Source: a virus
Direction: 5' to 3' (one strand)
Length of the DNA stretch: 40,752 bases
IMG/VR virus record: IMGVR_UViG_3300047554_000113
Location: 1 to 40,752 of that record
The position numbers and the translations under genes were made by a program. Shown one piece after another: positions 904-35,029 of this stretch. The notes beneath the pieces were generated by a model. It was not told the DNA's origin. It saw only the letters and a program-made list of their open reading frames with translations, and searched no databases. Position 1 is the first letter of the stretch; every line of letters starts with the position of its first letter.

Positions 904-1081
904 AACTATCATCATCTTTCCATACATCTATGGCACCACCACATTTATCACATGCGATAGTATAATCACCATAGTCATCCTTGTGTACGTCATTGGTTAC
1001 TGTTAGATAGTTGCAGCACATACCTGCTACATCATGGCTACTAGTGAACCAATACGAATTGATACCGCTTCCCATTATCAT
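893..1081 (-). CDS. Small cysteine-motif protein (62 aa)
   Basis: The ATG overlaps the TGA of the WhiB-type gene as ATGA, so the two are probably translationally coupled. The protein has a CC pair at residues 22-23 and a C44-x2-C47 knuckle (CDKCGG), giving four cysteines that could bind one zinc ion, in an otherwise acidic sequence. This resembles small zinc-ribbon proteins common in phage early regions. No catalytic motif is seen. Coupling to the [Fe-S] protein upstream raises the possibility of a shared regulatory role, but this is inference only. Confidence 0.6.
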   Translation of the reverse strand: MIMGSGINSYWFTSSHDVAGMCCNYLTVTNDVHKDDYGDYTIACDKCGGAIDVWKDDDSYDE

Positions 1082-1377
1082 ACTGTAAGTGATGGCAACC
1101 CCCTAGTTACTCGTTCTGATATGCGTTCCATAGCAGTCATACCACCCCAAAAACCGTACAGTTCATGGGAAATTGCGTACTCTCTGCACTCCTGCAAGGC
1201 GGGACACTTGAGACAGGTCTGTCGTAACTGTGCATGTTGCTTAGGTGCAGTCGATACATAGTAACCCCACTCTGTCTTGAAGTCATACGCTACATAGTCA
1301 TCATAGAATAAGTCGCCATCCATTTGTGCGCATAACGCACCGTCTAGGTTGGGCATGTTCTCGTACAACTTATGCAT
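1078..1377 (-). CDS. whiB: WhiB-family transcriptional regulator (Wbl)
   Basis: Wbl proteins hold a 4Fe-4S cluster and bind the housekeeping sigma factor; they are found only in Actinobacteria and their phages. Seen here (99-aa numbering): cysteines 16, 55, 58 and 64 in the family spacing C-x(n)-C-x2-C-x5-C, followed by the family turn GFWGG at 75-79 and a basic C-terminus (RISERVTR). The longer open frame starts at 1398, but the ATG at 1377 has a strong GAGGAGG ribosome site and overlaps the upstream stop by 8 bases. The likely job is to retune host transcription early in infection, or to interfere with a host Wbl protein, as reported for the mycobacteriophage TM4 WhiB. It also gives the best evidence for the host phylum. 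Confidence 0.93.
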   Translation of the reverse strand: MHKLYENMPNLDGALCAQMDGDLFYDDYVAYDFKTEWGYYVSTAPKQHAQLRQTCLKCPALQECREYAISHELYGFWGGMTAMERISERVTRGLPSLTV

Positions 1378-1582
1378 TGTATTCCTCCTCTGGGTCAATC
1401 AGTACCATTGGTATATCTAAGTCCCAATAGATTCTACCAATAGCACCTGACAATTTCTTAACCTGTTCATCTGTTAAGAAGATAGCGATAGTGTCGTATC
1501 GCAGTACCCACTTACCAGTTTCTAACTGACTGAGTTTAACCTCATCGTCATCGTGTATAAATACATCTGTGTATGTTCTCAT
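1370..1582 (-). CDS. Hypothetical protein (70 aa)
   Basis: No family recognised. It is joined to the amidotransferase gene by a TAATG overlap, and its end supplies the GAGGAGG ribosome site for the WhiB gene. The sequence alternates short beta-like stretches (TYTDVFIH, WVLRYDTIAIFL) with a helix (TDEQVKKLSGAIGRI), suggesting a small compact alpha/beta domain. No cysteines or membrane segment are present. Position between a biosynthetic enzyme pair and a regulator does not reveal its role. Confidence 0.65.
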   Translation of the reverse strand: MRTYTDVFIHDDDEVKLSQLETGKWVLRYDTIAIFLTDEQVKKLSGAIGRIYWDLDIPMVLIDPEEEYNA

Positions 1583-2439
1583 TATGCATCCACCTCATTC
1601 CACCAGTTGCCTTGATTCTTAATTGCATAACTAGGAGTATAGCACATGCACTCGTCTGCTGTGCCGAAACAATCTAAGCATGTGTTACATGCGGCACACA
1701 CACCTGAGTAGTAACTCTCCTCATCCAACGGGATAAAGCAATTGTAACATAGGTCTGTGCCATTGTAAAATTGGTCGTCACTTTCGACAGATGTTAGTGC
1801 CTTGCGGTCAGCACTAAGCAAGTCATCAGTAGACCATAGACCACCACGACTACCATACATACCACCACCATAGAAGTTATACGCATGCTTGTAACTTGTG
1901 TTAGACCACCAGATGTCACCATCCCATGAACCTAGATGTTCGTTGACAATGTACACAGAGTCACGCAGTTCAGGTGCAGTAGATAAGATTGCTAACTTAC
2001 TACCTGCCGCCCAGTCCTCTAGTCTAGCAAACGAATGCTTGTCATCTAGCATCTCGATACCCATGTTAAGCATGACATCCTCAGCAAAGATACGGGTATC
2101 TGAGCGTCTGTCACCCTGTCGTGGGTGGATAGGTAGCATACCGTTGTGACCTAAGATGATGTCACTACGACCACCGACCTTGAAAGGATGAGCATTCTCG
2201 ATGATGCTGTCACCATGCGTAGTGATACGAGCATGATACATAGCAACAAAGTCCTTGCCTGCCTTGTCTAGTGTGTCATAGAACTTGTCCACAGTTTTCT
2301 GTGGATTCATACCACGACTTGTAATTATCCTGTCACCAGTATGGATAGCAAACCCAAACCCGTCAGGGTTATTGTTGTTAGCATTACTGATGTACTTGTA
2401 GTCAGGTATCTGACCCATTGAAACCATTAGTAAACACAT
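1582..2439 (-). CDS. Class II glutamine amidotransferase-like Ntn hydrolase with C-terminal zinc fingers
   Basis: Class II amidotransferases hydrolyse glutamine with an N-terminal cysteine and pass ammonia to a partner. Here the start at 2439 gives Met-Cys, so Cys2 becomes the nucleophile after Met removal. A GGAGG ribosome site sits 6 bases upstream, while the longer frame to 2463 would bury the cysteine. Family motifs (285-aa numbering): NPDGFGFA 24-31, HARITTHG 69-76, ENAHPF 81-86, GHNG 97-100, SDTRIFAED 113-121. The C-terminal 60 residues hold eight cysteines (231, 234, 248, 251, 254, 257, 264, 266), probably two zinc knuckles, unlike housekeeping members. The gene directly follows the amidoligase gene with one base between stop and start, so the two proteins probably act together. 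The substrate is unknown. Confidence 0.85.
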   Translation of the reverse strand: MCLLMVSMGQIPDYKYISNANNNNPDGFGFAIHTGDRIITSRGMNPQKTVDKFYDTLDKAGKDFVAMYHARITTHGDSIIENAHPFKVGGRSDIILGHNGMLPIHPRQGDRRSDTRIFAEDVMLNMGIEMLDDKHSFARLEDWAAGSKLAILSTAPELRDSVYIVNEHLGSWDGDIWWSNTSYKHAYNFYGGGMYGSRGGLWSTDDLLSADRKALTSVESDDQFYNGTDLCYNCFIPLDEESYYSGVCAACNTCLDCFGTADECMCYTPSYAIKNQGNWWNEVDA

Positions 2440-2440
2440 A

Positions 2441-3775
2441 CTATTCCTCCATTTCCATTTCATTATTGTTATTTGTTACTGAAAAATCTGGTAAGAATTG
2501 TACCAGATTGTTATACTTACCTTGCTTGCGTATCCATGACGTGAACTCCTCAGGTCTGAGCATAGTCTTGGCATCGTGTCCACTGCGGATGTCACGAGAG
2601 TAAGTGACCACCGCATGAGAGAACTCGATAGCACTAAGGATACGTTCTACCTTGAGTGAACCCTTGAACATACGCAACTCGATAGTGTGGGTATTCTGTA
2701 AGTTGATAGCCAGATACCTCTCACCACCCTGACCTGCAGTACCCCAACGATTACCCTTGATAGTCCTGATGTTATCCTGCTTAGTGGACTCACCTATCTG
2801 ACCATAACTAGAGTTGCGACCTGCGATGTGTTCGGTCAGACCCTGATTATTATTGATGAGCATAGACATAGCCATGATGTGGGTACGGTCTTTGAAAGCA
2901 CGTCTATCTATGTGTACATGCAGACCACAGGTACTGGTATCCCAAGACCTGAAGCCAGAGTCACGCAACTTAGTAATCGTATTCCAATTGACCGCATCCT
3001 GATAATACTTGAGCGATGCTGGATGTGTGACAATCTCGAAGCCAAAGTTAAGTGAACCATCCTCTTTGAGATAGACAAACTCACCCCACTCATCGACCAT
3101 AAGTTCAGAACCCTCGCTTAGGTCGCCACGTTTAGCCTCGACTTCCAACTCGATACCGAACCGCAAGTGTTCGTTATCTGCATCAGTACCATAGAACACA
3201 GGGCTAGGCTTGTAACCATAGTTGTGGATGTTGTCGTCATGTGGGGTACACATGTCCTCTGTCCACTCATACTGGTCACACTCACCACACCAACTGGCAA
3301 CACGTTCGACACAATCTCTGCAGTAGTAACTATCGTGAGCAACAACCTGCACATCATCCATGTAGACGGACTCTTCGCATCGTTCGCACATGTAGAAATC
3401 ATCCGAACAGTTGAGACACAAGTCATCAAGGTATCTATGGCTAAGGAAATACCTGAACCCTGACGTACTACTAGCAGGTCTGTTGTTACCACAACTACCA
3501 CAACTATCAGTACAGTCAGTACATAGATACTTATACACCGTGTCATACCGTGTAGGTGACACACGATTGAACTCATACTCTGTGAAAATCATCATGCTAT
3601 CGCTGTGATTATCATACATAAATAGATTACCACAGGTGTAGCACTCACGTTCCACGTTAGCATGCGGATGCTGGTCTGGGGTCATGTCATCAGGTGAAGT
3701 CACCGTAGCATGCGCACCAGTTGAACTGTTGATGTCTTCATAAAGCAATCTAATTGCTTCATCTAGAACTGTCAT
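2441..3775 (-). CDS. Amidoligase-fold (COOH-NH2 ligase, GS-like) enzyme with N-terminal zinc fingers
   Basis: The C-terminal half matches the Amidoligase_2 family, relatives of glutamine synthetase and gamma-glutamylcysteine ligase that join a carboxylate to an amine using ATP. Motifs in order: FGIELEVE 206-213, EDGSL 238-242, FEIVTHP 246-252, CGLHVHID 283-290, RYLAINLQ 353-360, TIELRMFKGS 364-373. These carry the expected Glu/His/Arg residues for metal and ATP binding. Residues 45-176 hold a run of C-x2-C knuckles (45/48, 85/88, 92/95, 120/123, 130/133, 152/155, 163/166), probably several treble-clef or ribbon zinc fingers for target binding. It is the first gene after a palindrome and is coupled to an amidotransferase. 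The substrate (peptide, wall or protein side chain) cannot be read from sequence. Confidence 0.85.
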   Translation of the reverse strand: MTVLDEAIRLLYEDINSSTGAHATVTSPDDMTPDQHPHANVERECYTCGNLFMYDNHSDSMMIFTEYEFNRVSPTRYDTVYKYLCTDCTDSCGSCGNNRPASSTSGFRYFLSHRYLDDLCLNCSDDFYMCERCEESVYMDDVQVVAHDSYYCRDCVERVASWCGECDQYEWTEDMCTPHDDNIHNYGYKPSPVFYGTDADNEHLRFGIELEVEAKRGDLSEGSELMVDEWGEFVYLKEDGSLNFGFEIVTHPASLKYYQDAVNWNTITKLRDSGFRSWDTSTCGLHVHIDRRAFKDRTHIMAMSMLINNNQGLTEHIAGRNSSYGQIGESTKQDNIRTIKGNRWGTAGQGGERYLAINLQNTHTIELRMFKGSLKVERILSAIEFSHAVVTYSRDIRSGHDAKTMLRPEEFTSWIRKQGKYNNLVQFLPDFSVTNNNNEMEMEE

Positions 3776-3813: not shown

Positions 3814-3948
3814 TTACTTGCCGATTGGTAGAAAGCCTTTGGCTTCCCATTCACGTTCTAACTTATCGAAGATAGGTGTTTGTGTCAAATCTCCGTCTGC
3901 ATCTAGGCGTTCGAGCAGTTTTAAGTATGCGTCTTTTAGTTTACCCAT
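3814..3948 (-). CDS. Hypothetical protein (44 aa)
   Basis: A small gene with one of the best ribosome sites in the window: AGGAGGTGA ends a few bases before the ATG at 3948. The protein is an amphipathic, charged helix-turn-helix-like peptide (KLKDAYLKLLERLDADGD, then IFDKLEREWEAKGF). No family is recognised. It follows the preceding gene by 11 bases and ends three bases before palindrome copy 1, making it the last gene of the group between copies 2 and 1. Strong translation and conserved spacing support a real gene; function is unknown. Confidence 0.65.
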   Translation of the reverse strand: MGKLKDAYLKLLERLDADGDLTQTPIFDKLEREWEAKGFLPIGK

Positions 3949-3959
3949 AGTGTCACCTC

Positions 3960-4142
3960 CTAATCGTTCACTAATACTAAATGGTTTTCGGACATGTTCA
4001 CAATAAACGACTTGCGTGCTTCCGCCTGCGTGTAGTTATAGTATGTGGATGAAAGCATGAACACTTCATGCGTAGTCATGTCACGCACAAGTGCTGACAC
4101 AATCAAGCCACCTGACGGGTGTGCAATTCGTACATTAATCAT
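3960..4142 (-). CDS. Hypothetical protein (60 aa)
   Basis: No family recognised. The frame is open to 4226, but the ATG at 4142 overlaps the stop of the 49-aa gene by 8 bases and has GGAG about 10 bases upstream, so it is preferred. The sequence looks like a small beta-rich domain: INVRIAHPSGGLIVSALVRD, then HEVFMLSSTYYNY, ending with a short helix (TQAEARKSFIVNMSE). No cysteine, membrane or catalytic motif is seen. It belongs to a run of four tiny genes between two palindromes that were probably transcribed together. Confidence 0.65.
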   Translation of the reverse strand: MINVRIAHPSGGLIVSALVRDMTTHEVFMLSSTYYNYTQAEARKSFIVNMSENHLVLVND

Positions 4143-4284
4143 GGCGTTCAACTCCAACTCCATACTCAACCTTAAGTTTAGCGTTTGCATAGTGCAACTT
4201 ATCCTTGAGTTCCCTGAGTTGCTCATCGGATAGATGCTTAACTGATTGCTCAGTTAGTTCAGACTTCCAGATAATGTTATCCAT
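4135..4284 (-). CDS. Hypothetical helical protein (49 aa)
   Basis: The ATG at 4284 has an AAGGAGA ribosome site 7 bases upstream and overlaps the upstream stop by 8 bases. The protein is mainly one charged helix (LTEQSVKHLSDEQLRELKDK, then LHYANAKLKVEYG) and could form a coiled coil. No family recognised. It is below the usual length cut-off for gene callers but has the spacing, ribosome site and overlaps of a real operon member. Confidence 0.6.
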   Translation of the reverse strand: MDNIIWKSELTEQSVKHLSDEQLRELKDKLHYANAKLKVEYGVGVERHD

Positions 4285-4405
4285 TAGCCAGTCTCCTTAG
4301 TTGTCGGCGTTGCAACTCACGTTGCTTAGCAACATGCTTGCGCTGGTACTGGGTGCTGTTCACAAACTCATGGTAAGTCTTGCGAACTCGGCGTTCTCTG
4401 TTCAT
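4277..4405 (-). CDS. Small very basic protein (42 aa)
   Basis: The ATG at 4405 lies 16 bases after palindrome copy 2. The peptide is extremely basic: about a third of residues are Arg or Lys, clustered at both ends (NRERRVRK and QRELQRRQLRRL), which suggests nucleic-acid binding. Its stop overlaps the next start by 8 bases. No family recognised. It is the first gene after copy 2, so its expression may be controlled by whatever binds there. A real gene is likely from overlap and position, although the ribosome site (GGAA) is weak. Confidence 0.5.
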   Translation of the reverse strand: MNRERRVRKTYHEFVNSTQYQRKHVAKQRELQRRQLRRLANG

Positions 4406-4421
4406 GATAGTTCCAATCTGA

Positions 4422-4439
4422 TTATTCTAATTAGAATAA
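4422..4439. promoter_or_regulatory. 18-bp palindrome, copy 2
   Basis: A second perfect TTATTCTAATTAGAATAA. It spans the last codons and stop of the upstream gene (encoding ...Y-S-N-stop) and lies 16 bases before the start of the next gene. Confidence 0.75.
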
Positions 4440-4624
4440 CCTAGTAGTAGTTTCAATGCTTCAACTCTACGGGTTTCTTCTGCTTGTGTCAAGCCGAACT
4501 CAACAGCAAACTTCTTACCCTTTGTAGGTGCTGTGTACTTAGGCACACTTCGCACCATTACATGTGACCTGCTACGGATAACCCTACTTGTAGGGATAGC
4601 CCCTTGATACCTTGCGCTAGGCAT
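4427..4624 (-). CDS. Hypothetical basic protein (65 aa)
   Basis: No family recognised. The open frame reaches 4714, but that would bury 98 bases inside the upstream gene; the ATG at 4624 overlaps the upstream stop by 8 bases, as for neighbours. The N-terminal half is rich in Arg and Ser (IPTSRVIRSRSHVMVRSV), and the C-terminal third is a helix (LTQAEETRRVEALKLLL). Its stop codon lies inside palindrome copy 2, so the regulatory repeat and the coding end have co-evolved. Possible nucleic-acid binding from charge only. Confidence 0.55.
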   Translation of the reverse strand: MPSARYQGAIPTSRVIRSRSHVMVRSVPKYTAPTKGKKFAVEFGLTQAEETRRVEALKLLLGYSN

Positions 4625-4778
4625 TTTGTGACGCCCATCTATTTTGACGGAACTTCTTAGCCAACTTGCCCGCTTCCACACGTTGCCAATTATAGTAAGC
4701 CCATGTTTGTTCATAGGCTTCTTGCCTGCGTGCTATGTTCTTAGCGCGTTTGTTACGCTTGCGTTGTGCTTTACTCAC
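4617..4778 (-). CDS. Small Lys/Arg-rich protein (53 aa)
   Basis: First gene after the strong promoter at 4854-4882 and palindrome copy 3. The GTG at 4778 is chosen because GGAG lies 6 bases upstream; in-frame ATG at 4790 and TTG at 4802 are alternatives without a ribosome site. The N-terminus is strongly basic (KAQRKRNKRAKNIARRQ), followed by an aromatic segment (YEQTWAYYNWQR) and another basic end. It looks like an RNA- or DNA-binding peptide, possibly an early takeover factor, but no family is recognised. Confidence 0.55.
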   Translation of the reverse strand: MSKAQRKRNKRAKNIARRQEAYEQTWAYYNWQRVEAGKLAKKFRQNRWASQNA

Positions 4779-25711: not shown

Positions 25712-26383
25712 GTGACTAACACAAACCTAACAATAATTGGCACACGGTCAAGACCGCACAATGCCATACGTGCTTTTGAAGCACTAAAGAAAACAAGTAA
25801 GATATCTGACTTCGTTATGATTATTAACGAAGACCAGGTTGACTTGTACCCAAAGATATACGGTGTCACAACTGAGGTTGTACCTAGTCATCACGGTGTC
25901 AATGGTAAGTTCAACACCATTGTACCTAAGTACTTAGACCAGTATGAAACTATTACTGGTATTGATGATGACTGTCTAGTACAAACAGATGGTTGGGATG
26001 TAATCCTATCTGAACCAATCAAGCGTTTAGGTTACGGTATCTCATACGGTAACGATGGAATCCAAGGACAACTACTTCCTACTAAGGTAATGATATCAAC
26101 TAACATTACTAAGGCATTAGGATTCTGGTGTCCACCAGCATTGTTCCATTCATATGCAGATGACTTCTGGAAACTAATGGGTGAATCTATCAATTCACTT
26201 CACTACTTCAGAGATGTCAATATGGAACATCTACACTGGATGAATGGTAAAGCACCTAAGGATGAGACCTACGAGAGCAATACTCTCCAACAGGCTCAGG
26301 CAGATAAACACGCTTATGGTTTATACCTACGGGATGAATACTACCCAGACCTAGAAAGACTAGAGAAGGCTCTGGGCATATGA
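25712..26383 (+). CDS. Glycosyltransferase-like protein (223 aa)
   Basis: GT-A-fold sugar transferase-like. The N-terminus (LTIIGTRSRPHNAIRAFEAL) has the strand and helix of the nucleotide-sugar site, and residues 85-87 (ITGIDDDCLV) are the acidic DxD-type metal site. GTG start (ATGA overlap with the next gene at the end). The middle has an unusual run of strands and the C-terminus is helical. It probably decorates virion fibre or host surface polymers, working with the next gene. The family match is by motif only. Confidence 0.7.
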   Translation: MTNTNLTIIGTRSRPHNAIRAFEALKKTSKISDFVMIINEDQVDLYPKIYGVTTEVVPSHHGVNGKFNTIVPKYLDQYETITGIDDDCLVQTDGWDVILSEPIKRLGYGISYGNDGIQGQLLPTKVMISTNITKALGFWCPPALFHSYADDFWKLMGESINSLHYFRDVNMEHLHWMNGKAPKDETYESNTLQQAQADKHAYGLYLRDEYYPDLERLEKALGI

Positions 26384-27456
26384 AGATAGCCGTATATGCT
26401 ATAGCCAAGAATGAAATCAAGCACGTGGATAGATGGGTAAAAGCCTGTCAGGGTGCTGATTCTATAGTGGTGGTAGATACTGGGTCCATAGACGGGACCT
26501 ATGAACGCCTCCTAGAATACCCTTTAGAAGCCCACAGAGCCAATCTCAGCCCTTTTCGCTTTGATGTGGCAAGAAACATAGCCCTTGATTTTATATCGCC
26601 TGATATTGACGTTTGTGTGTCCCTTGATTTAGACGAGGTTCCAGACCCAGACTTGTTTGACAAGATACGGGAGGGCTGGAAAGAGGACACAGGCAGAGCC
26701 TGGGTGATGTGGGATACTGGCAATATCTGGGCTAACAATAACCGTGTCCACGCTAGACACGGATATAAGTGGAAGTATCCTTGCCACGAAATCATCGTCC
26801 CTGATGCAGGTAAAGATAACTTAATCGTTATTGAATCCTGTGTCAGACACTTACCAGATAATGATAAGTCTCGTGGTCAATACTTAGACTTACTTGAACT
26901 AGGATACAAAGAGACTCCAGATGAGTCTCGTATGTTAGTATACTTGATACGTGAGTATTACTTCAAGGGTATGTGGAAAGAGATAGTTGAACTAGGTCCA
27001 CGTATTGATGACATCAAAGATGTCTGGAATGTTGAACTTGCACAAACCTATCGTGGTATAGGTGAAGCACATTGCAAACTTGGCAATGACCAAGAAGGTC
27101 TTAAGTGGTACCTCAAGAATGTTGAAGTAGCACCTAAAGATTTAGAAGCGTGGATGCCATTGGCTTTCTACTACTACGAACGTGGTATGTGGAAAGAATG
27201 TCAAGAGGCAGCCGATAAAGTTAATGAACTACCAAACGAATCGTACAAACATTACATAGCAGATGATTCTATGAAGTGGCGTATGTATGACCTACTAAGT
27301 ATAGCCTGTTGGAACTTAGGTCTCAAAGGTTCTGCTAAGAAGTGGGCACGTATGGCAGTTGAATTAAACCCTGAAGACGAACGTCTTAGAGGAAACTATG
27401 ATTTCATAGTTAGACAAACAGTTAGGGAATATAAAGATGCACACCCACACGGGTAA
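26380..27456 (+). CDS. Family 2 glycosyltransferase with C-terminal TPR-like repeats (358 aa)
   Basis: The N-terminal 200 residues are a GT2 domain: MKIAVYAIAKNE, VVVDTGSIDGT with D33, and the DxD motif LDLDEVPD (D83/D85). The remaining 150 residues are helical repeats like TPRs (YRGIGEAHCKLGNDQEGLKW; YYYERGMWKECQEAADKV), commonly used to hold a protein acceptor. Some GT2-TPR enzymes modify peptides or proteins. The first 440 bases use more GC-rich codons than the rest, pointing to a recombinant 5' part. It is coupled by ATGA to the preceding glycosyltransferase. A target could be the Thr-rich collagen fibre. Confidence 0.85.
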   Translation: MKIAVYAIAKNEIKHVDRWVKACQGADSIVVVDTGSIDGTYERLLEYPLEAHRANLSPFRFDVARNIALDFISPDIDVCVSLDLDEVPDPDLFDKIREGWKEDTGRAWVMWDTGNIWANNNRVHARHGYKWKYPCHEIIVPDAGKDNLIVIESCVRHLPDNDKSRGQYLDLLELGYKETPDESRMLVYLIREYYFKGMWKEIVELGPRIDDIKDVWNVELAQTYRGIGEAHCKLGNDQEGLKWYLKNVEVAPKDLEAWMPLAFYYYERGMWKECQEAADKVNELPNESYKHYIADDSMKWRMYDLLSIACWNLGLKGSAKKWARMAVELNPEDERLRGNYDFIVRQTVREYKDAHPHG

Positions 27457-34371: not shown

Positions 34372-34508
34372 TACCTATCCTCATGTTGGCAATCGCACCC
34401 AGTACATTTATTATGAAGTTGTCTACATACCCAGAGATAGTTTCTAGGCATACCATTCTTATATGCAGTAAGTCTATCGCCTGCTTGTCTACAAGGTTTA
34501 CATATCAT
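34371..34508 (-). CDS. Cysteine/histidine-rich miniprotein (45 aa)
   Basis: ATGA overlap with the upstream gene and TAATG overlap with the downstream gene frame it exactly (start 34508, stop 34371). It has C3-x2-C6 at the start, C28, then C35, C38, C40 and H42 near the end (CTGCDCQH), forming probably one or two zinc sites. No family recognised. It lies directly after the proteasome-like gene, so the pair may be coupled in expression. Confidence 0.65.
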   Translation of the reverse strand: MICKPCRQAGDRLTAYKNGMPRNYLWVCRQLHNKCTGCDCQHEDR

Positions 34509-35029
34509 ATGGACATCACATCAATAGGACTCGCACACTCTGGTGAGTGTTTGATTGATGCACTAATAGCCATTTGTATTCGTTTACGTGGTGGTATGTC
34601 TAACTTACTAGTAGCATGTAGGCTACCAATAGCATAGGCATAACCAGAACCTTGAGCAGTATAGTCATACTCAGATACTGACCAATCTTCGGTAGTAATA
34701 TCAAACAATCTACCATCTACACCTACTAGAATATCAGCACCATTCTCTTTAGTATTAATATCAATCTTAAACATCTCTGATGCTTTCTGAATTGCATCAC
34801 AGAAATCAATACGTAAGTATGCTTCCAAGTTATCTAGTCTAGGTTCAGGATAGTTAGCAAAGTGCATTAACTGTCCAGTACCACGAGATGCAGAGTAAGC
34901 AATAATCATATTACCTATCTTGCGAATCTTAGGAGTGAGAGATGAGGAGATAAACCCCTCATCTGACATCCCTCGGTCAGCACCTATGTATACCTTACCC
35001 TGATGGGTAAGTCCTGCTAGTACTGTCAT
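34505..35029 (-). CDS. Proteasome beta / HslV-like Ntn hydrolase (174 aa)
   Basis: Proteasome-type Ntn hydrolases cut peptide bonds with an N-terminal threonine. After Met removal the chain begins TVLAGLTHQGKVYIGADRG, giving T1, D17 and, in LTPKIRK, K33: exactly the catalytic positions of proteasome beta subunits and HslV. The following IAYSASRGTG matches the next conserved strand. The length equals HslV-type subunits. No ATPase partner is encoded, so it may assemble alone or with host proteins, or act as a decoy. It is coupled by ATGA to the sigma-like gene and to a zinc miniprotein. Confidence 0.82.
   Translation of the reverse strand: MTVLAGLTHQGKVYIGADRGMSDEGFISSSLTPKIRKIGNMIIAYSASRGTGQLMHFANYPEPRLDNLEAYLRIDFCDAIQKASEMFKIDINTKENGADILVGVDGRLFDITTEDWSVSEYDYTAQGSGYAYAIGSLHATSKLDIPPRKRIQMAISASIKHSPECASPIDVMSI

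Follow-up and report, generated by a model that had tools for sequence, protein, structure and literature searches.

Several groups of phages encode an Amidoligase_2 ligase next to a glutamine amidotransferase, and the function of these pairs has so far been guesswork. The annotated instance in a cultured phage is gp105/gp106 of Mycobacterium phage Marvin. A paper on OM43 phages attributes to the amidoligase and GATase a suggested part in wall modification and in preventing superinfection in phiEco32, and gives suggested roles in secondary metabolism and phage-host interaction for the same genes in Marvin (PMC10580990). RIO1-like podoviruses and their relatives are described as carrying a seven-gene peptidoglycan-modification cassette (PMC5498523), the amidoligase/amidotransferase cassette genes are listed for LUZ24-like phages (PMC3890496), and wall-modification or superinfection functions are predicted for related cassettes in work that cites Iyer et al. 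2009. The available portions of PMC10580990, PMC5498523 and PMC3890496 report no experiment on cassette activity, and the literature searched yielded no enzymatic activity for any close relative. A role in nitrogen metabolism has been proposed for a Planctomycetes phage with an amidoligase and a glutamine amidotransferase (PMC10945688), and amidoligases of Clostridium elements are described with a gamma-glutamyl cyclotransferase encoded nearby.

The pair analysed here lies in a stretch of 40 752 nucleotides (hereafter the window) from an uncultured virus of actinobacteria. The first-pass annotation of the window knew of no described phage function for such a pair, which was mistaken: pairs are on record in Marvin, in the OM43 phages MEP401 and MEP402, where their function is discussed, and, as related cassettes, in LUZ24-like phages and phiEco32. 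The pair is thus not new. Marvin and other Marvinvirus phages have the same gene order as the window, an amidotransferase with 34-36% identity from end to end, the C-terminal Cys domain included, and a ligase that is 29% identical and shares its motifs. Marvin differs in having a 65 kb genome, 79 nt between the two genes, and a ligase with a shorter N-terminal Cys region and an additional C-terminal part, which is annotated as a glutamine amidotransferase domain protein. In MEP401 and MEP402 an amidoligase and a GATase also adjoin and share the catalytic motifs, whereas most of the N-terminal cysteines of the ligase are not kept in the OM43 phages and the MEP402 amidotransferase has no C-terminal Cys domain.

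The gene pair and its two protein families

A single base (position 2440) separates the ligase stop codon from the amidotransferase ATG, as the first-pass annotation had noted (Table 1). The amidotransferase most likely starts at 2439 (MCLL...) and not at 2463, the start given by the ORF finder, since GGAGG closely precedes the ATG there, a class II amidotransferase must begin with Met-Cys, and the longer frame would bury the cysteine.

Table 1. Positions of the gene pair, its predicted functional elements and the adjoining regulator in the window
Feature	Position	Strand	Basis or conservation
WhiB-like regulator, mostly found downstream of the pair (genomic context, outside the enzyme)	1078..1398	-	Pfam Whib, 44.1 bits
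Class II (Ntn, Cys2) glutamine amidotransferase	1582..2439	-	C-terminal Cys-rich zinc-type region
Amidotransferase residues 231-266, CxxC...CxxCxxCxxC...CxC	1642..1749	-	Conserved Cys
Amidotransferase motif HNG, residues 98-100, predicted oxyanion hole	2140..2148	-	44/44
Amidotransferase motif HARITTHG, residues 69-76, predicted glutamine binding	2212..2235	-	H69, R71, T74, H75, G76 invariant in 44/44
Cys2, predicted N-terminal nucleophile of the amidotransferase	2434..2436	-	44/44
Amidotransferase start codon ATG, followed by TGT	2439-2437	-	Sequence
Amidoligase_2 ligase	2441..3775	-	GS-like carboxylate-amine ligase (predicted), N-terminal Cys-rich zinc-type region
Ligase stop codon TAG	2443-2441	-	Sequence
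GGAGG, candidate ribosome-binding site of the amidotransferase	2446..2450 (2450-2446)	-	Within the ligase 3' end; sequence
Ligase motif TxExRxF, residues 364-370	2666..2686	-	E366, R368 invariant in 58/58
Ligase motif GxHxH, residues 284-288	2912..2926	-	Invariant in 58/58
Ligase motif GxExE, residues 207-211, predicted metal/ATP site	3143..3157	-	Invariant in 58/58
Ligase Cys-pair region, residues 45-176	3248..3643	-	Conserved cysteines, 58 sequences

The profile searches proposed for both proteins gave a clear answer for the ligase, which matches Amidoligase_2 (PF12224) in Pfam with 36.4 bits (curated cut-off 22), as do 57 of the 58 aligned ligase sequences. In PHROGs it falls into phrog_16683 (E 6e-41), a family without function there. 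Its predicted structure (mean pLDDT 77, and above 80 across most of the catalytic part) retrieved YbdK (1r8g, E 2.4e-6) at modest TM-scores (0.33), together with glutamine synthetase (GS) and gamma-glutamylmethylamide synthetase (GmaS) and, more weakly, Dop/PafA; the modelled fold is that of a GS-like carboxylate-amine ligase. All 58 aligned ligases keep the GS-like acidic, His and Arg active-site motifs GxExE, GxHxH and ExR. In the N-terminal region C130, C152, C155, C163 and C176 are invariant in all 58 and eight further cysteines are present in 55-57, a pattern that probably corresponds to about four zinc sites. A profile of this region matched LIM domains weakly among PDB sequences (E 0.007); we dropped the LIM assignment, as none of the ligases had a LIM match in Pfam.

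For the amidotransferase the Pfam result was split: the window protein scores 18.9 bits against GATase_4, under the curated cut-off of 23, yet all 44 aligned relatives match the family with E values of 0.1 or below (lowest 4.7e-9). It belongs to phrog_25883 (E 7e-41), likewise without function in PHROGs. A profile of the 44 sequences found the GlmS glutaminase domain among PDB sequences (E 4.4e-6), and the structural model (mean pLDDT 82) matched the GlmS glutaminase 1xff (E 8e-7) ahead of EgtC (7.5e-5). By profile and model, the protein is thus placed among the class II (Cys2) amidotransferases and resembles the glutaminase domain of GlmS, whose HTRWATHG aligns with its HARITTHG in the profile alignment. 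Residues M1, C2, R71, T74-H75-G76, H98-N99-G100 and D114 are invariant in 44/44. The same holds for C231, C234, C248, C251, C254, C257 and C266 of the C-terminal region, with C264 kept in 41/44, and these residues probably form two zinc sites.

The complete catalytic motifs and the extra Cys-rich zinc-type domains that the first-pass annotation reported in both proteins are therefore present across the aligned relatives, with invariant catalytic residues. Neither extra domain has a good match to any named Pfam family. Most cysteines of both vary little or not at all, a sign that the domains are functional parts, and within the alignments the conservation of motifs and zinc-type cysteines lies far above chance expectation. 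Real, complete and found in many genomes, the pair is ordinary in kind. A DNA-level search of phages returned no matches. Neither protein matched the PADLOC defence-system models, on which ground a known anti-phage defence system was rejected.

Linkage in viral and bacterial genomes

As a query against viral contigs, the ligase protein alone gave no matches; an alignment query recovered at least 498 ligase relatives, of which the best 80 were analysed. The amidotransferase lies directly downstream of the ligase in 78 of these 80; the other two loci (L072 and L074) stop at a contig edge, so that the partner is present in 78/78 loci with room for it. The reverse search, started from the amidotransferase and covering contigs partly shared with the first set, gave at least 570 viral loci. 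In 74 of the best 80 the gene directly upstream is the ligase; the remaining six loci start on a contig edge or very close to one (74/74 with room). The median spacing of the two genes is 11 nt (n = 82 pairs), no gene fusion was seen among the loci examined, and the longer viral relatives measure about 40 kb. Active sites are intact across the viral pairs, more than 150 loci in these partly overlapping sets. The pattern that would have spoken against a joint function, genes often apart and active sites degenerate, was not found among these loci. Within the phage lineage, the ligase and amidotransferase trees agree about as well as the ligase and terminase trees and not clearly better, and we therefore do not use tree congruence as evidence of interaction.

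Four loci (L009-L012) have the closest ligase relatives among the matches listed (about 55% identical). Their amidotransferase frames read Val-Cys where Met-Cys is expected, and so these genes likely start at GTG. Clostridioides phage AR1086-1 (L007) encodes an Amidoligase_2 protein without an adjoining amidotransferase.

In 64 of the best 80 viral ligase loci a WhiB-like gene lies about 2.2 kb away from the ligase, a hint at hosts among the actinobacteria. Terminator-like hairpins at 5032-4993 and 32-12 (minus strand) could bound a leftward transcript of the pair, the WhiB-like gene and small genes, and a promoter-like site is found at 4882-4854. The first-pass annotation had suggested that tiny peptides encoded at 3814-4778 could include substrates. 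In relatives these ORFs are not conserved beside the pair, with the exception of a single weak match (a 95-aa ORF, in L022), and a 49-aa ORF recurs in seven loci, there downstream of the pair. Nothing therefore marks the peptides as substrates, and we rejected the suggestion. Elsewhere in the window, an HslV/proteasome-like Ntn peptidase that begins with Met-Thr (34505-35029, minus strand; phrog_1040, E 4.7e-15) lies at the distal end of the leftward gene block. Within the ~40 kb lineage it occurs in 18 of 29 viral-contig records, and it is absent from Marvin, MEP402 and MW202733. Two glycosyltransferase-like genes (25712-27456, plus strand; phrog_14945 and phrog_13126) lie amid the rightward structural genes.

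A search of bacteria and archaea, limited to one genome per species, gave at least 568 ligase relatives, and the best 80, mostly from Nocardia and Ruminococcus-type genomes, were analysed. The amidotransferase is found within the locus in 74 of them, nearly always adjoining; as for the other six, L138 has an amidotransferase motif in a nearby ORF and some end shortly past the ligase. The N-terminal cysteines of the ligase are nearly general among the bacterial copies, and about half of them have the C-terminal Cys domain in the amidotransferase, which the other half lacks. Integrase, recombinase, relaxase or mobilization genes flank at least 26 of the 80 loci, and part of the bacterial loci are therefore likely to be mobile elements. 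We do not claim this location for all copies, with markers in only 26 of 80 within the flanks examined. A DUF960 gene is often found upstream of the ligase in the Ruminococcus-type loci (24-27 loci, in the range L100-L168).

Two or three ligase-amidotransferase pairs stand in tandem in 19 bacterial loci, mostly in Nocardia (within L092-L161). When the ligases and amidotransferases of these loci were clustered independently, each fell into two types, and the type of the ligase agreed with that of the adjoining amidotransferase in 40 of 40 members. This agreement indicates that tandem pairs are cognate units whose duplicates have kept their own partners, and it is the strongest evidence in our analysis for a dedicated two-part enzyme.

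Reaction and substrate

Both folds, the intact active sites and the obligatory, cognate pairing are in hand, and on that footing we infer a physical complex, ammonia transfer, a class of substrate and a benefit to the carrier. Our preferred reading, held with somewhat more confidence than doubt, is a two-subunit glutamine-dependent enzyme that amidates a macromolecular substrate, yields a carboxamide and benefits the element that carries it. The reaction would most likely be Gln + ATP + R-COOH -> R-CONH2, with R-COOH on a macromolecule. The amidotransferase would hydrolyse glutamine through Cys2 and pass the ammonia to the GS-like ligase, which would spend ATP on turning a carboxylate into an acyl phosphate and from it form a primary carboxamide. 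The Cys-rich domains of both subunits would most likely hold the subunits together and dock the substrate, and their presence favours a macromolecular one. This would be a protein of the host or of the phage or, with lower probability, a wall precursor, and on phages and bacterial loci, some of them mobile, the pair would alter a host component to the advantage of the element. The functional pairing and glutamine-dependent amidation put forward in the first-pass annotation thus remain the best reading of the reciprocal linkage, the intact sites and the cognate tandem pairs.

A narrower version, which we consider doubtful, is a protein-amidating machine of phages and mobile elements whose Cys-rich domains recruit a specific host protein and turn a carboxylate into an amide with nitrogen from glutamine. 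If true, it would represent an as yet undescribed post-translational takeover or protection mark, and the tandem pairs of Nocardia would be versions for two different targets.

A possible alternative, rated a little above that narrower version, is that the pair changes or amidates stem peptides of the host peptidoglycan and so blocks other phages (superinfection exclusion). A wall role has been suggested in print for phiEco32 as well as for marine and LUZ24-like podoviruses, and was repeated for the OM43 phages, with reference to Iyer et al. 2009; there is also a precedent in MurT/GatD, which amidates D-iGlu of the wall in some Gram-positives and mycobacteria. Against it, no supporting experiment was found in the literature searched, and the gamma-glutamyl cyclotransferase (GGACT) of the cassettes was detected in none of 32 records (the window and 31 others), in a search whose control was positive in 9 of 14 genomes. 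Cys-rich docking domains would also be unusual for an enzyme of wall precursors.

Less probable still, and in our view unlikely, is a gamma-glutamyl make-and-break scheme like that of EgtA/EgtC, in which the ligase would couple glutamate with an amine and its amidotransferase-like partner would hydrolyse the gamma-glutamyl amide. The ligase model is similar to YbdK and gamma-glutamylmethylamide synthetase, class II folds include hydrolases such as EgtC, which the partner model resembles, and other amidoligase systems encode a gamma-glutamyl cyclotransferase nearby. The activities of GlmS and EgtC rely on similar residues. However, the GlmS glutaminase is the better match for both the model and the sequence profile, and no recurrent pathway gene directly adjoins the pair in the phage and bacterial relatives.

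An auxiliary nitrogen metabolism, in which the pair shifts the glutamine and ammonia pools of the infected host, follows the proposal made for the Planctomycetes phage with both enzymes (PMC10945688) and is very improbable, as it leaves the strict cognate pairing and the conserved Cys-rich domains unexplained. Chance neighbours or decayed genes with no joint function can be dismissed in view of the reciprocal linkage and the intact active sites in viral and bacterial loci.

Comparison with MurT/GatD and the larger cassettes

The lipid II amidating complex MurT/GatD resembles the proposed enzyme in principle, as a ligase and a glutamine amidotransferase together produce a carboxamide. In contrast to the window pair, it combines a Mur-ligase fold with a class I amidotransferase and is not homologous. 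The LUZ24-like, phiEco32 and RIO-1-like cassettes share with the window an Amidoligase_2 protein and a class II amidotransferase encoded close together, and contain, beyond these two, a second ligase as well as an ATP-grasp enzyme and a gamma-glutamyl cyclotransferase. The second ligase (PF14395) was found in none of the 32 records, with control genomes likewise giving no match, and the window genes scanned against PHROGs gave no match to an ATP-grasp protein. With the cyclotransferase missing from all 32 records, the two genes alone seem sufficient. Their pairing is without exception in the actinophage-type contigs examined, drawn from hits in the hundreds, and is present in most bacterial loci examined. 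In comparison with the larger cassettes, the window pair represents a minimal two-gene form without the cyclotransferase, and therefore the simplest one in which reaction and substrate can be tested, with Marvin as the cultured relative.
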